A stretch of DNA of 33,066 nucleotides from a virus. Under the pieces are notes generated by a model. The model saw only the letters and a program-made list of their open reading frames with translations, was not told the DNA's origin and did not search any database. Numbering within the stretch: position 1 is the stretch's first letter; each line of letters starts with the position of its first letter. The translations under genes were made by a program, and so were the position numbers. The stretch is from positions 1 through 33,066 of the IMG/VR virus record IMGVR_UViG_3300021963_000410; one strand, 5' to 3'. This document shows, one piece after another, positions 11,134 through 24,604 of this stretch.

Positions 11134-12312
11134 ATGCCGCCGACCATAACCATCGACGAAGAGTTATATAAATACTGCACCCCTCGGCAGAAGCAGGTTC
11201 TTGAAGCTATAGAACGCCTTGGCAGTGCTAGAGCCGCATCCGCTGAATTAGGAATGAACATAGGCGGTGCAAGCGAAACTTATATTGCCGTAAAACGTAA
11301 GGCTGCAAAGTTTGGTTATGCGCCAGAGCATGACTTCACTCGCCCTGTGCCTGATGGCTTTATCGCCAAGGGCGTAAGCACCTATTACAATGCTGAAGGC
11401 AAACCATCTGGGCAATGGGTAAAAGCATCACTCAGCCATGAAGCTCTTGTAGACGCTATGAGAGAGGCAATCGAAGGCTTCAAGGGTGATATAGACCAAG
11501 CAAGCCCTATCGTTGCCCCTGTGGCTTCTGACGAGCATCTATGCAATCTTTACACGTTCACCGATTACCACCTTGGAATGCTGGCATGGCACAAAGAAGG
11601 CGGCAACGATTGGAACATCTCTATTGCGGAGCGCACAATCATTGCCGCGCTGCAACAGATGATCGAGCAAAGTCCTAAAGCGCATACCGCAGTCATCAAT
11701 ATACAAGGCGACTTTCTGCATACGGATGGCAAGACGCCAGTGACGCCAGCATCAAAACACGTTCTAGACGCTGACAGCCGATTCCCTAAGATACGCAAGT
11801 CCGCGATCCGCGTCATTCGATCAATGGTAAATATGTCACTGCATCGGCATCAAGAAGTGCATCTAATTATAGCTGAAGGCAATCACGACGAAGAAGCAAG
11901 CGGCTGGCTGGCTGACTTGTTCTCGGTGCATTACGAAGAAGAACCTCGCGTCACTGTCAATGATAGCGTCCTGCCATTCTATGTCTTTGAATGGGGCAAT
12001 ACGATGCTGGGCATCCATCACGGGCATAAGGTAAAGAACGAGAGCCTACCGCTTTTGTTTGCCGCCCAGTTTCCACAAGAATGGGGTCGCACGACACGGC
12101 GCGAAATACACTGCGGCCACCGCCATCACCGCGATGAGAAAGAGTATAATGGTGTGACAGTTGTGCAACACCCCACGCTGGCGGCGCGTGATGCCTATGC
12201 TGCGCGTGGAGGTTGGATTGCGGATCGAGCCGCTTGGGCTATCACATACCATAAGAAATATGGAGCTGTTGGCCGCGTTATGATAACGACTGAGATGCTT
12301 GAAGCAGACTAG
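11134..12312 (+). CDS. calcineurin-like metallophosphoesterase with N-terminal HTH
   Basis: This is a 392-residue protein. Its metal-binding motifs are complete: DYH (D144, H146), GDFLH (D193), GNHDE (N250, H251), HHGH (H296, H298) and GHRHH (H329, H331). That defines a calcineurin-like phosphoesterase using two metal ions. Residues about 14-60 look like a helix-turn-helix (RQKQVLEAIERLGSARAASA), a known fusion in phage members of this family. The substrate is unknown; DNA ends, cyclic nucleotides or host RNA are possible. It starts directly after the spanin stop and is the last gene of the plus-strand block, facing the minus-strand early genes. Confidence 0.8.
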   Translation: MPPTITIDEELYKYCTPRQKQVLEAIERLGSARAASAELGMNIGGASETYIAVKRKAAKFGYAPEHDFTRPVPDGFIAKGVSTYYNAEGKPSGQWVKASLSHEALVDAMREAIEGFKGDIDQASPIVAPVASDEHLCNLYTFTDYHLGMLAWHKEGGNDWNISIAERTIIAALQQMIEQSPKAHTAVINIQGDFLHTDGKTPVTPASKHVLDADSRFPKIRKSAIRVIRSMVNMSLHRHQEVHLIIAEGNHDEEASGWLADLFSVHYEEEPRVTVNDSVLPFYVFEWGNTMLGIHHGHKVKNESLPLLFAAQFPQEWGRTTRREIHCGHRHHRDEKEYNGVTVVQHPTLAARDAYAARGGWIADRAAWAITYHKKYGAVGRVMITTEMLEAD

Positions 12313-17547: not shown

Positions 17548-17852
17548 TTTGATACCTCTTGCGCAATGATACGTACTCCTAGTGCTTTAGCCCAGCACAT
17601 AAAGAAGAATGCTCCGGGCAAACGGGCTTTGCTTTCCCATTTAGCGACCATCGATTCTGAAACCCCAATCATCTGATCTAAATCTGATTGGCTGAGTGAA
17701 AGTTCTTTTCGCCTTGCGATTAAAGAATCGATCAGTTCATCATAAAAGACAAGCTCACTTGGGCTGGCTTTTAATGTGTGTATCCGTTTCAATGCAGCCT
17801 TTCCATCGGCACTGAGCCAATGGAAAGATAGCATTTCTTCTTTATCAGACAT
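17523..17852 (-). CDS. XRE-family HTH regulator
   Basis: This 109-residue protein has a helix-turn-helix of the Cro/CI (XRE) type at about residues 50-80: RRKELSLSQSDLDQMIGVSE, SMVAKWE, then RLPGAFF. The N-terminal 40 residues carry an unrelated helical part, and the C-terminus is short, without a dimerisation or cleavage domain of lambda CI type. No integrase is present, so it more likely controls the early-to-late switch than lysogeny. It overlaps DUF932 by 8 bases and DUF1064 by 25. Confidence 0.8.
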   Translation of the reverse strand: MSDKEEMLSFHWLSADGKAALKRIHTLKASPSELVFYDELIDSLIARRKELSLSQSDLDQMIGVSESMVAKWESKARLPGAFFFMCWAKALGVRIIAQEVSKCQEKNQP

Positions 17853-18924
17853 CTGAAAGTATACTACCAGCTATGCGTTCGACAGCAACACGGGCATCTT
17901 GATGCTTGAGGCCACGCGCATAAGCGGTAGCACCAGTAACAATATCCCAAGGGCTGCGCATAGGGCGTCCTTCATCTGCATTATGAGCAAGCTTAATAGC
18001 CTGTGCTTGGTTCTTCGTAAACCTTTTGATTAACACTGCGTCAACACGCTCTTCGTCTAGGTAAATAGACTTGGCATTAGCGACAGCATCTACAATAGAA
18101 TGGTTAGATGCAGTCTGTAATGACTCAAGTGCAGGCATTATCTCACTGGCCCACCGATGTGGAGCGTTGAGCGAGTGACGAATCGATACCTCTTTGTAGC
18201 CATGCGCTCCCCATACAATGCGGTTGCTGCATACATAATCAAACAAGAAGGTTCCGATCTTTAGTGTCGATGAACCGACCTCGCTATTCTGCACAAAGAA
18301 ACCACGCGCAAGCAAACCTGACTCTCCATTGCGGCGATCAGGAATCTCGACGCGGTTCTTTTCATCGGCAAGAAACACAAACATATCACGATCACCAGCA
18401 AACAAAGTGGTGTTATCTTTAGTTATCGTAACTTGTTTGCCGAACTCACCGGGAACAGTGAACTGTGCATCAGGGCCGCTGCCAAAGTTGCGAACCAGTG
18501 CGTCCACTACATCAGCATTCCAAATGCGACCATAAGTAGGGCCAGTTACTGCGGACAGTTGGTCTTCTCGTGATAGCCAGCCCACCTGCTCGACCTTGCG
18601 CTGTGCCATAGATTGATTGAGGCAATCGCTGACCAGATCGCTTGGCAATGTACGCATATAAGATGCAGGCGCACCAACAAGTTGGCATAGCTGACCAAAG
18701 GCCCAGTGACTAGGCGCAGTAACTCGATCATCATCCATCATGATAGCAATAGATCGAGGGTCATCTTCTACGGGTGCTATGGACAAATTGCGGTTAGCAA
18801 TTGTTCCCATCTGTGAGATGATACGTTGCCTGCGTGTGAATGCAGCCATATCATCGAGGGAAATAAATCGTTCATCATCAGGACGCTTAGCCCATTGTTG
18901 ATGCGCTTGTGTAAGTGTAGTCAT
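17845..18924 (-). CDS. DUF932 family protein
   Basis: This 359-residue protein has the features of the DUF932 phage/plasmid family: AFGQLCQLVGAPASYMRTLP, GPTYGRIWNADVVDAL, LFAGDRDMFVFLAD, ARGFFVQNSEVGSSTLKI, and CSNRIVWG followed by a histidine-bearing RHSLNAPHRW. The family is widespread on phages and plasmids and its biochemical role is not established; links to DNA replication or recombination have been suggested. It has a clear ribosome site (AGGAGAGAAC) and is the largest protein of the early block. It may act on replicating DNA or the host. Confidence 0.82.
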   Translation of the reverse strand: MTTLTQAHQQWAKRPDDERFISLDDMAAFTRRQRIISQMGTIANRNLSIAPVEDDPRSIAIMMDDDRVTAPSHWAFGQLCQLVGAPASYMRTLPSDLVSDCLNQSMAQRKVEQVGWLSREDQLSAVTGPTYGRIWNADVVDALVRNFGSGPDAQFTVPGEFGKQVTITKDNTTLFAGDRDMFVFLADEKNRVEIPDRRNGESGLLARGFFVQNSEVGSSTLKIGTFLFDYVCSNRIVWGAHGYKEVSIRHSLNAPHRWASEIMPALESLQTASNHSIVDAVANAKSIYLDEERVDAVLIKRFTKNQAQAIKLAHNADEGRPMRSPWDIVTGATAYARGLKHQDARVAVERIAGSILSDV

Positions 18925-20005: not shown

Positions 20006-20515
20006 TTACGCCACCCCCTCCTCTGCTGCTGCTGATACGCCACCTTCGCGGATAGCTTCTACGTCAACGCCGAAGCGTTTGGCGGACTCAAGCGCGGCGC
20101 TTTGGAAGTCCTTACGAACTTGTGGTTTATAAGTTGGGCGAGTGAAACGCTCACCTGTGTGCTTGAGATGTCCTTCTTCAGCGACTTCCAACAGCGCATT
20201 GAGCGTAGTGACCTGCGTTTGCATACGGTCTGCCCAGTCAATAGCGCGGACTAGTTGTTGCTCACTGATTTCGTCACCACGGTGAGCACGAGCGGCAACG
20301 CGAACTCGTTCGCTTGCGAGGTCAAGCTGTTCTGTAGATGACTGCAAAGTCAAGGCGGCTGAGTAGCAGATGCCGTTGAAGAATCTCCGTTGAGCATATG
20401 CGAGTGCATTGACCTCGATCTGTTCACCAGTATCACGGTCTGTTTTTATCATTGGTTCAGTCATGAACTCAGCGATGGTATCGATTGCTTTTGTAAGTGC
20501 ATTAATAGTAGTCAT
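20006..20515 (-). CDS. first early protein, unknown (169 aa)
   Basis: The start at 20515 follows CTAGGAGAAG; the open frame continues to 20701 but that part is the structured leader. The protein is mainly helical. It has a possible beta-hairpin (IKTDRDTGEQIEVNALAYAQ), then several helices (LDLASERVRVAARAHRG, QLVRAIDWADRMQTQVTTLN), a basic stretch with TRPTYKPQVRKDF, and an Ala/Glu-rich tail. It is the promoter-proximal gene of the minus block, where phages usually encode host-takeover or DNA-protecting proteins. No family was recognised. Confidence 0.7.
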   Translation of the reverse strand: MTTINALTKAIDTIAEFMTEPMIKTDRDTGEQIEVNALAYAQRRFFNGICYSAALTLQSSTEQLDLASERVRVAARAHRGDEISEQQLVRAIDWADRMQTQVTTLNALLEVAEEGHLKHTGERFTRPTYKPQVRKDFQSAALESAKRFGVDVEAIREGGVSAAAEEGVA

Positions 20516-20591
20516 GTTACTTCTCCTAGTTGGTAACTTCGGGGCTATCCCGAAGGTGGCCCTAGCTGAAAGGGCGTTCGTGGTTCTGGCG

Positions 20592-20633
20592 CAAGGCCGC
20601 ACCGCAGGTGGGCCTGCGTAGCAGGTTGCCTTG
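20592..20633. ncRNA. possible three-way-junction RNA element
   Basis: CAAGGC (20592-20597) pairs with GCCTTG (20628-20633). Inside are two adjacent hairpins: CACC/GGTG (20600-20610) and CCTGC/GCAGG (20613-20625), joined by two-base linkers. All pairs are Watson-Crick, so the fold is possible on either strand. On the minus strand it would lie in the early mRNA leader. Confidence 0.35.
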
Positions 20634-20766
20634 TGACAGGTTCCGAACCCCTGTAGGCAGGGACAACTAGGGTAGACCAGAAGGGAGCAACGGAGACGCA
20701 ACCTGAGCAGTATGGCACTTACAAAAGCAATCGGTGCCGTCTCTTTTATCAGTCTTTATCAGTACT

Positions 20767-20772
20767 TATAAT
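20767..20772 (+). promoter_or_regulatory. candidate -10 element of the terS promoter
   Basis: TATAAT matches the sigma70 -10 box exactly. The position 17 bases upstream (TTTTAT) is a poor -35, so activation by a protein bound at the repeated ATCAGT units is possible. It lies 78 bases before the terS start. Confidence 0.35.
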
Positions 20773-20850: not shown

Positions 20851-21249
20851 ATGGTTAATGTAGTGAAGCCAATCGAGTCTCCTAATGGTGCTCTCACTGA
20901 AATGCAGGATCGGTTTGTAGATGCTTATGTATCCAATGGCGGTCGCATAGAGAAGGCTGCTATCGAGGCAGGTTACAGTGAGACATCTGCTCGTACCTTA
21001 GGCAGTAGATTAGCTAAAGATCCCCGTATCTTACAGGAGATATATAGACGCACTGTAGAGCAGATTGCATTAGCTGCTCCGAAGGCTTTAGCAACAGTTG
21101 AGCGATTGGCCGTAACAGCACGTAGTGAGAAGGTACAACTTGAGGCAGCAGCAGATCTGTTGAATCGAGCAGGCATCAAGGCTCCAGATAAAGTCGATCA
21201 CAGGATTAACGGAGAGATCAGTGTTACTATCGATCTCGGTGGCAAGTGA
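20851..21249 (+). CDS. terS: small terminase subunit
   Basis: The ATG at 20851 gives 132 residues; the frame is open further upstream to 20734, but that part lies in the control region. GALTEMQDRFVDAYVSNGG, IEKAAIEAGYSETSARTLGS and RLAKDPRI match the DNA-binding helix-turn-helix of Terminase_2-type small subunits. An oligomerisation helix (APKALATVERLAV, EKVQLEAAADLLNRAG) and a short strand tail follow. The protein recognises the packaging site and loads the large subunit. The large subunit gene is unusually far away, 3.5 kb downstream, with five or six genes inserted between. Confidence 0.85.
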   Translation: MVNVVKPIESPNGALTEMQDRFVDAYVSNGGRIEKAAIEAGYSETSARTLGSRLAKDPRILQEIYRRTVEQIALAAPKALATVERLAVTARSEKVQLEAAADLLNRAGIKAPDKVDHRINGEISVTIDLGGK

Positions 21250-22357: not shown

Positions 22358-24604
22358 ATGGCCTATCCGATACGCCCGAAAAATCTAAAGAAGATCGGTG
22401 TCGATGATGACAACGTAGCCGCGCTACGCGATCTTCAGCGTAAGGTTACGGCGTTGACGGAAGGCCAGCCTAACCAAGCTGGTGTAGGCTCTTTGACTTG
22501 GAGCGATGCGCTCGGCACTTTCACTATTACAAAGCCCGGTGGAACTGTTGTTCCTGTAGGCACTGTAACTAGCGTTGCGGCCTCTGGCGGCACTACTGGT
22601 CTTACCTTTTCTGGTTCACCTATTATTGGATCTGGTACTCTCACACTTGGCGGGACACTTGATTTAGATAACGGCGGAACTGGCGCGACTACTGCTGCCG
22701 GAGCGCGAACCGCTCTTGGTTTGGGTACTGCTGCTACTACAGATGCCTCTGCATATGCTACCGCGGCTCAAGGCGCTAAAGCTGATACTGCTGTTCAAAC
22801 TATTTTATCTGCCGATGGTTCTGTAACTATAACTGGAACTACAGCTATAGACCTTTCCGTTGTCGTTGCTGGTTCAACATCTAATGTCCTGCTGCCTGTT
22901 CGCAACACCACGGGCGCAACGCTCACAAAAGGCACTGCGGTATATATCAGCGGCGCTACTGGTCAGCGTTCTACTGTTAGTAAGGCGATTGCAACAAGTG
23001 ACGCAACATCTGCGCAGACACTTGGTTTAGTTACCGCTAATATTTCTAATAACTCCAATGGCAATGTGACGCTTATTGGAACCATTATTGATATTGATAC
23101 ATCTGCCTACACGGATGGTCAGCAACTATATCTTAGCCCAACAACGGCTGGAACACTGACAGCAACTAAGCCATATGCACCTGACCACTTGGTTTACATG
23201 GCAGTTGTTGAATACGCGCATCCAGTGCATGGCAAGTTATTTGTCAAAGTCCAAAACGGTTATGAAATGGACGAACTGCATAATGTTGCGGCCCAATCCC
23301 CTGCTAATAACGATGGCCTGTTTTACAACACAACGACAAACTTATGGGAAAAGAAGTCGATTGTTACGGCGCTTGGTTACACACCTTACAACGCTACAAA
23401 CCCTGCTGGCTACACGACTAACACAGGAACAGTTACTAGTATTAACTTAACTGCTGGCACAGGCATCGCCGTTTCTGGTGGGCCAATTACGTCTTCTGGT
23501 TCTATTACTGTAACGAATACCGCGCCAGATCAGGTCGTATCTTTAGCTGGCGCTGGCACAACTGCCATTACTGGAACATATCCAAGTTTCACGATTACAT
23601 CGAATGACCAGTATGTCGGAACTGTAACAAGCGTTAGCGGCGCAGGCACTGTCAACGGCATCACGCTTACTGGATCAGTAACTAGTAGCGGCTCTTTGAC
23701 GCTGGGCGGAACTCTTAGCGGGATTGTTAATAGCCAACTGACAAACTCATCTATTACAATTAACGGCTCTGCAATTAGTCTTGGCGGTTCTGTTTCGGTT
23801 GGGACTGTTACAAGCGTTGGTGGCACTGGCTCGGTAAATGGAATCACGCTCACCGGCAATGTCACTTCAAGTGGCAGTCTAACGCTCGGCGGCACACTGT
23901 CGAACGTCAGCCTCACAACGCAAGTCACAGGCACACTTCCAGTTGGCAATGGCGGCACAGGCACAGCTACGGCGTTCACCACTGGCTCCATCGTCTTTGC
24001 TAACTCATCCGGCATTTACGCCCAAGACAATGCCAACTTCAACTGGAACAATACCAACAAGACGCTCGGTGTTGGTCGCACTGCATCATCTAACGTGCGC
24101 GTTTATTCCAAGGGCGGCACAACGGGTTCAGGCGCGTTCTCTTACTATGGTGAGAACAGCGCGGGGACTGGCTGCTTTGGTATCCGCGACGATGGCGCAT
24201 TTTATTCTGGTCAAGCATCTCTTTCGCCTTACAACCTGACCACTGCTGCTGCTGCAAACCTAGTCGTTGCTGCGGACTATTATCTGTATCGCTCAACTTC
24301 TTCGGCGCGTTACAAGAAGAACATTGTTGATTATGATCGCGGGTTGGATGCGATAATGTCGCTACGCCCTGTCTATTACGAAGGCAAAGGTGAGATCGAC
24401 GAAGGCAAGCGGTTTGCTGGTTTTGTCGCAGAAGAAGTTTACGACGCTGGGCTAACTGAGTTCGTTGTATTGGACGAAGAAGGAAAGCCTGATGCATTGC
24501 ACTATGGCAATATGAATGCGCTTTTAGTAAGTGCGCTACAGGAAGCTCTCTATCATATTACCATTTTAATTAAACGCGTAAACGAGTTAGAAAAAAAACA
24601 GTAA
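22358..24604 (+). CDS. tail fibre with C-terminal S74 self-cleaving chaperone
   Basis: This is a 748-residue protein. A short N-terminal helical part (LKKIGVDDDNVAALRDLQRK) may attach to the virion. Four modules starting GTVTSV follow at residues 68, 357, 421 and 482; each is Thr/Ser/Gly-rich beta structure. The C-terminal region from about 645 is a Peptidase_S74 intramolecular chaperone. It includes SSARYKKNI, with S648 and K653 at the spacing of the Ser-Lys catalytic pair, and later FAGFVAEEVYD and a coiled end. It trimerises the fibre and then cuts itself off. The gene sits in the packaging block, far from the other fibres. Confidence 0.85.
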   Translation: MAYPIRPKNLKKIGVDDDNVAALRDLQRKVTALTEGQPNQAGVGSLTWSDALGTFTITKPGGTVVPVGTVTSVAASGGTTGLTFSGSPIIGSGTLTLGGTLDLDNGGTGATTAAGARTALGLGTAATTDASAYATAAQGAKADTAVQTILSADGSVTITGTTAIDLSVVVAGSTSNVLLPVRNTTGATLTKGTAVYISGATGQRSTVSKAIATSDATSAQTLGLVTANISNNSNGNVTLIGTIIDIDTSAYTDGQQLYLSPTTAGTLTATKPYAPDHLVYMAVVEYAHPVHGKLFVKVQNGYEMDELHNVAAQSPANNDGLFYNTTTNLWEKKSIVTALGYTPYNATNPAGYTTNTGTVTSINLTAGTGIAVSGGPITSSGSITVTNTAPDQVVSLAGAGTTAITGTYPSFTITSNDQYVGTVTSVSGAGTVNGITLTGSVTSSGSLTLGGTLSGIVNSQLTNSSITINGSAISLGGSVSVGTVTSVGGTGSVNGITLTGNVTSSGSLTLGGTLSNVSLTTQVTGTLPVGNGGTGTATAFTTGSIVFANSSGIYAQDNANFNWNNTNKTLGVGRTASSNVRVYSKGGTTGSGAFSYYGENSAGTGCFGIRDDGAFYSGQASLSPYNLTTAAAANLVVAADYYLYRSTSSARYKKNIVDYDRGLDAIMSLRPVYYEGKGEIDEGKRFAGFVAEEVYDAGLTEFVVLDEEGKPDALHYGNMNALLVSALQEALYHITILIKRVNELEKKQ

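Follow-up and report, generated by a model that had tools for sequence, protein, structure and literature searches.

A 274-bp imperfect palindrome was found at positions 20471-20744 of the 33,066-nt stretch of viral DNA analysed here (the window; IMG/VR record IMGVR_UViG_3300021963_000410), between a divergent early gene and the terminase small subunit gene (terS). Its plus strand, which is the DNA template strand of the early gene, folds better than its minus strand. By analogy, the element looks most like the single-stranded DNA (ssDNA) switches of conjugating plasmids entering a new cell. Our preferred reading, held tentatively and a little short of even confidence, is a cis-acting plus-strand ssDNA hairpin, similar to Frpo/ssi, that may serve RNA synthesis of the early gene, DNA priming, or both. 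The original prediction had proposed a structured RNA, an origin or a packaging site for this region; a functional structured element was borne out by conservation and covariation, whereas leader RNA and packaging roles were weakened.

The window, a 33 kb virus record, covers the greater part of a podophage-like genome. Its plus strand carries terS (20851-21249; PHROG phrog_51, E 1.3e-16), terL and the genes for portal, capsid, tail and internal virion proteins, together with a tail-fibre-like gene with an S74 chaperone domain between terS and terL (22358-24604). The minus strand encodes SSB, Erf, a YqaJ nuclease, an O-like initiator (weak DnaT-domain match), a DUF1064 resolvase, an HTH regulator, a DUF932-like protein and the early protein. 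The DUF932-like protein (17845-18924) matched phrog_1362, with a Pfam score slightly under the cut-off; DUF932 is also present in the F leading region. The product of 11134-12312 matched phrog_704 (DNA repair exonuclease) and, weakly, Metallophos_2; an SbcD-type nuclease, if it is one, would be of interest beside a giant palindrome. The first early gene (20006-20515, minus strand) encodes a 169-aa protein of a divergent helical family with no Pfam or PHROG match. Its ATG at 20515 lies 92 nt from the palindrome centre, and its probable ribosome-binding site, AGGAG (20523-20527, minus strand), falls within the left arm. Among isolates, Pelagibacter phage EXVC031P Hodr is the nearest by TerL (63%); its layout is the same, and it has a hairpin of its own. 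The early proteins of 58 loci formed mainly two sequence clusters, of 18 and 10 members, alongside many singletons; a common C-terminal pattern, xYxxxTGxxYxP, suggests one divergent family.

All the inverted repeats predicted earlier were present at their positions. The side hairpin CTTCGGG-GCTAT-CCCGAAG (20537-20555, plus strand) is an alternative to the long pairing, CCCTAG and CTAGGG form a closing pair (20560 and 20667), and further alternative hairpins are found at 20636-20654 and 20649-20662. The tip (20592-20633, plus strand) is a Y-shaped three-way junction closed by CAAGGC/GCCTTG, which the DNA fold favours as ssDNA. Inside it are two plus-strand minihairpins, seen in both the sequence and the DNA fold: CACC-GCA-GGTG (20600-20610), with a C-GNA-G triloop, and CCTGC-GTA-GCAGG (20613-20625). 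The latter includes GCGTAGC (20616-20622, plus strand), an instance of the GCGNAGC motif that is enriched on the plus strand in relatives. This cluster exceeded chance, as the 151 nt around it folded with z-scores of −2.9 (plus) and −4.0 (minus) and none of 200 shuffles was as good. The 136-bp cluster is genuine, but its predicted extent was too small, for it is only the tip of the 274-bp palindrome. The statement that no reading frame explains the region held for most of it; the left arm, however, contains the ribosome-binding site, the ATG and about 15 codons of the early gene.

The outer inverted repeat has 30-nt arms (20471-20500 and 20715-20744), of which 19 bp are perfect: CGATTGCTTTTGTAAGTGC (20482-20500), which also forms early-gene codons on the minus strand, pairs with GCACTTACAAAAGCAATCG (20715-20733). 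Aligned with its own reverse complement, 20471-20744 gave a 67% match over 288 columns (E 4e-13, each pair being counted twice). Folding of both strands against shuffled controls, the check suggested with the prediction, gave structures that surpassed the shuffles by a wide margin (z −7 to −8.6). Folded as RNA, the 281-nt region reached −138.3 kcal/mol on the plus strand and −115.6 kcal/mol on the minus strand (z −8.6 and −7.6); as DNA, the corresponding values were −71.7 kcal/mol and −61.2 kcal/mol (z −8.4 and −7.1). The rest of the window had no other such palindrome; the sole other one was weak (17791-17835, 45 bp, E 0.26). In the right arm, a possible 19-aa ORF (MALTKAIGAVSFISLYQYL; 20713-20772, plus strand) has ALTKAI in common with the start of the early protein, which may be a trace of inverted duplication.

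Three TerL scans of viral contigs yielded 77 distinct loci (metagenome contigs and one isolate), each with at least 400 nt upstream of terS. With one setting throughout, a palindrome of at least 55 bits was detected in 41 of the 77 terS-upstream windows and in none of 321 other windows of the same loci; a chance palindrome was ruled out by this same-locus control. For loci of other phages, the figure was 13 of 423. The palindromes of these marine phages were 226-1362 bp long and lay upstream of terS. A separate 98-bp palindrome (85 bits) was observed upstream of terS at the record start of Burkholderia phage BcepC6B (L355, 1-98).

Between groups the palindrome sequences were unlike and the pairing was kept. 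Within groups the hairpin was the most conserved DNA nearby, exceeding neighbouring coding DNA. Pairs of relatives showed 95-98% identity in the hairpin where the flanks had 70-80%, for instance 98% vs 70-80% for L067/L281; for L061/L060 the values were 96-100% vs 50-75%. L050 and L060 had only the 95-nt tip in common (99%), with different arms. Compensatory Watson-Crick double changes numbered 43 vs 7.8 expected, about five times as many, counted over pairs some of which share members and are not fully independent. The prediction had named folding no better than shuffled sequence and no covariation in relatives as grounds for giving it up; the homologues show covariation and the folds surpass the shuffles.

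The strand on which the structure acts was addressed in several ways. An mRNA strand preference drawn from separate plus and minus MFE folds was discarded as biased, and strand-neutral tests left only a weak plus-strand G.T excess. Arm mismatches read on the plus strand were G.T in 422 cases vs A.C in 236, with a G.T excess in 29 of 36 loci; the composition background was milder (333:268), and the G.T odds ratio was 1.44 (p 0.002). The strand-neutral substitution test gave 63:39 for G.T vs A.C (p 0.02), and with more distant pairs it gave 95:86, which is not significant. Because of the share due to composition and this null result, the G.T line is suggestive only.

GCGNAGC enrichment was the stronger strand signal. 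The motif occurred 33 times on the plus (terS) strand vs an expectation of 5.8 based on the remaining sequence of these loci (p 5e-15) and 8 times on the minus strand vs 4.5 expected, so it was enriched on the plus strand only. It ranked first of 60 permuted motifs, and most of its occurrences were within about 50 nt of the palindrome centre, where the centre is known. C-GNA-G triloops made up 9 of 109 triloop hairpins in the elements vs 8 of 962 elsewhere. The heptamer d(GCGNAGC) is unusually stable as DNA. Folded as ssDNA, the plus strand was the better one in 30 of 35 loci (p 4e-6).

A tip motif, AACACGG-hairpin-GTGGTGCGGGC, was present on the plus strand in 5 of 72 phage loci (L037, L052, L068, L013 and Hodr; 36-70 bits). 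In the viral-contig scan it gave 53 matches; about 20 were linked to terS and had perfectly covarying hairpins, and the remainder were near chance expectation. Matches to the R1 model of the motif reached E values down to 2e-8, and Rfam has no family for it. Many Alphaproteobacteria also carry the motif, with a covarying inner hairpin in 25 of 81 matches examined, and in phages and Alphaproteobacteria the inner and outer stems both covary. The bacterial copies lie upstream of small divergent genes, with relaxase, NikA/MobC, ArdC, ParB_N and DUF2958 genes nearby; L398, L405, L390, L361, L362 and others have it beside relaxase, ArdC, ParB and DUF2958 genes. The bacterial elements are weaker palindromes, 1 of 23 reaching 45 bits. 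In the plasmid collection, one query returned two Sinorhizobium matches only and two other queries returned none. The same motif with a covarying hairpin was observed ahead of an HTH-type gene at 13950 of L344, a phage contig in which TerS had no match. The window tip was considered as a copy of this motif, which its best R1 match of 4.6 bits did not support; it has instead the two GNA minihairpins, adjacent in a Y in the DNA fold. As the window lacks the motif and only the 5 phage loci have it, the plasmid link comes through other members of the family.

A structured noncoding RNA or leader is a doubtful alternative, though it has several observations in its favour. It could be a plus-strand RNA, antisense to the early gene and running into terS, or a minus-strand mRNA leader that hides the ribosome-binding site. 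The RNA folds, the compensatory changes and the G.T excess in mismatches and substitutions agree with it, the early-gene ribosome-binding site and start codon lie within the stem, and the hairpin of the Pelagibacter phage isolate likewise pairs the early-gene ribosome-binding site. However, a G.T bias is expected for ssDNA too, the polarity favours the strand antisense to the early mRNA, and the RNA tetraloops GNRA and UNCG were not enriched in the elements, whereas the DNA-type GCGNAGC loop was. Known RNA families, tRNA and tmRNA were considered, and none matched the element; the lack of an Rfam match also speaks against an RNA. Since the stabler fold, the G.T wobbles, GCGNAGC and the AACACGG motif are all on the plus strand, a minus-strand leader RNA is not the best-supported molecule.

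The position of the element relative to its neighbours bears on two further readings. Of 36 loci, 31 have a minus-strand ORF whose start lies 61-174 nt (median 108) from the centre of the palindrome, irrespective of palindrome length, and the gap to terS varies widely, from about −87 to 453 nt. This steady distance to the early-gene ATG links the element with that gene. A start of replication with no promoter function, either an origin or a lagging-strand (sso/ssi) start, appears unlikely. Single-stranded origins typically have GNA minihairpins and imperfect palindromes that are host-specific, and the phage encodes the O-like initiator, SSB and recombinases, which would suit such a role, but the tight geometry is to the early-gene start and not to the initiator gene. 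Also improbable is a packaging or concatemer-processing site next to terS, at which terminase would bind or cut the palindrome or hairpin ends would form. T7 concatemers have hairpin ends, and the palindrome is always upstream of terS in this group. What weakens this role is that the early-gene start, and not terS, lies at a steady distance from the centre; related tip motifs also adjoin relaxases with no terminase. A physical genome end at the palindrome was considered too, and contig ends showed no pile-up at the palindrome centre in the related loci, which are mostly metagenome contigs.

The longest arms were found in L084, L085 and L190, where palindromes of 1.2-1.4 kb upstream of terS pair the complete early gene with a non-coding inverted copy, about 78-86% complementary. 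In the twelve longest palindromes, pairing stayed at 79-84% along the arms and fell to its lowest value, 62%, at the tip; neutral outward decay of long arms was not seen. The long arms are most simply explained by a fresh inverted duplication at this locus, and the special structure sits at the tip. That the whole element was left behind by repeated inverted duplication and quasipalindrome template switching and does little or nothing is very improbable: the inverted, non-coding early-gene copies with no outward decay fit it, and template switching could mimic compensatory changes, but the palindromes are confined to one locus, are conserved above neighbouring coding DNA, and show strand-specific motif enrichment, fixed spacing and a conserved tip motif with covarying stems.

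In the preferred ssDNA-hairpin reading, the plus strand would become single-stranded or be extruded from supercoiled DNA and would then fold into a long, imperfect rod that ends in very stable GNA-loop minihairpins. This hairpin may be recognised as a double-strand-like landing site, from which RNA synthesis into the early gene could start, or at which DNA synthesis could be primed, or both, as with Frpo/ssi at plasmid leading-region genes. We know of no ssDNA stage for this phage, which counts against this reading. The broader proposal, in which an ssDNA hairpin promoter (or promoter/primer) serves the first early gene in an entire group of dsDNA tailed marine phages and has a tip motif related to undescribed ssDNA elements of the leading regions of alphaproteobacterial mobile elements, is possible and on balance not the likelier outcome. 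If it is true, early expression in such phages would be controlled by a stage in which the DNA is single-stranded or extruded as a cruciform, and ssDNA promoters or priming hairpins extend beyond conjugation and N4-like phages and are a standard feature of abundant marine phages, one of them isolated on Pelagibacter. The proposal would also provide an assayable cis-element for early expression, a handle on the start of infection, and a new structured motif to seek beside anti-defence genes in Alphaproteobacteria. Even with RNA as the acting form, this is a very large conserved hairpin with no Rfam match.

Our literature search found no paper on Frpo-like elements in phages or on this palindrome in pelagiphages, and comparison was made with four kinds of known or related element. 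The hairpins of alphaproteobacterial mobilizable elements share AACACGG-hairpin-GTGGTGCGGGC and covarying stems with some of the phages, have the motif on the template strand, and place the ATG of the divergent gene about 75-90 nt from it; they differ in their shorter and weaker palindromes and in the tip motif that the window lacks. The virion RNA polymerase promoters of phage N4 (review PMC4496689) are tiny hairpins read by a giant virion polymerase. Like them, the window has a GNA-loop minihairpin (GCGTAGC, 20616-20622) on the template strand upstream of early genes; unlike N4, its element is large, and no match to an N4-type giant virion polymerase was recognised among the window proteins scanned. 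The sso of ICEs and rolling-circle plasmids, such as that of ICEBs1 (PMC4595007), are likewise imperfect palindromic ssDNA elements with little sequence conservation; the phage element differs in being tied to an early-gene start, and no rolling-circle initiator was recognised in the window.

The closest comparison is with Frpo/ssi of F-type plasmids (PMC9849209, PMC11541004). The same pipeline applied to the F plasmid detected two palindromes, 317 and 239 bp long, immediately upstream of ssb and of an antirestriction gene, which by position are the known Frpo regions (PMC9849209). The phage differs in being a dsDNA tailed phage with no relaxase or oriT; none of the window proteins was found to be a relaxase, so there is no Frpo-type setting near oriT and relaxase. 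F lacks the R1 tip motif, and the phage palindromes are often longer and more complementary, with the ATG nearer the stem or within it. The stem of Frpo is reported to re-form −10 and −35 boxes (PMC9849209), whereas sigma70 −35/−10 boxes in the phage arm facing the early gene had a non-significant mean z of 0.09 vs shuffles (with the E. coli consensus, which may not be that of the host), and sigma70 promoters were not enriched around or in the arms. For this reason we propose that the element may work like Frpo/ssi, not that it is identical to it. Both are long imperfect palindromes directly upstream of an early-expressed gene, and both have SSB and DUF932 genes near, in the F leading region and in the early module of the window. 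In both Frpo elements the template strand had a lower energy as DNA than the coding strand, with GCGNAGC on the template strand only, in one of the two; the template strand likewise folds better in the window (−71.7 vs −61.2 kcal/mol) and in 30 of the 35 phage loci.
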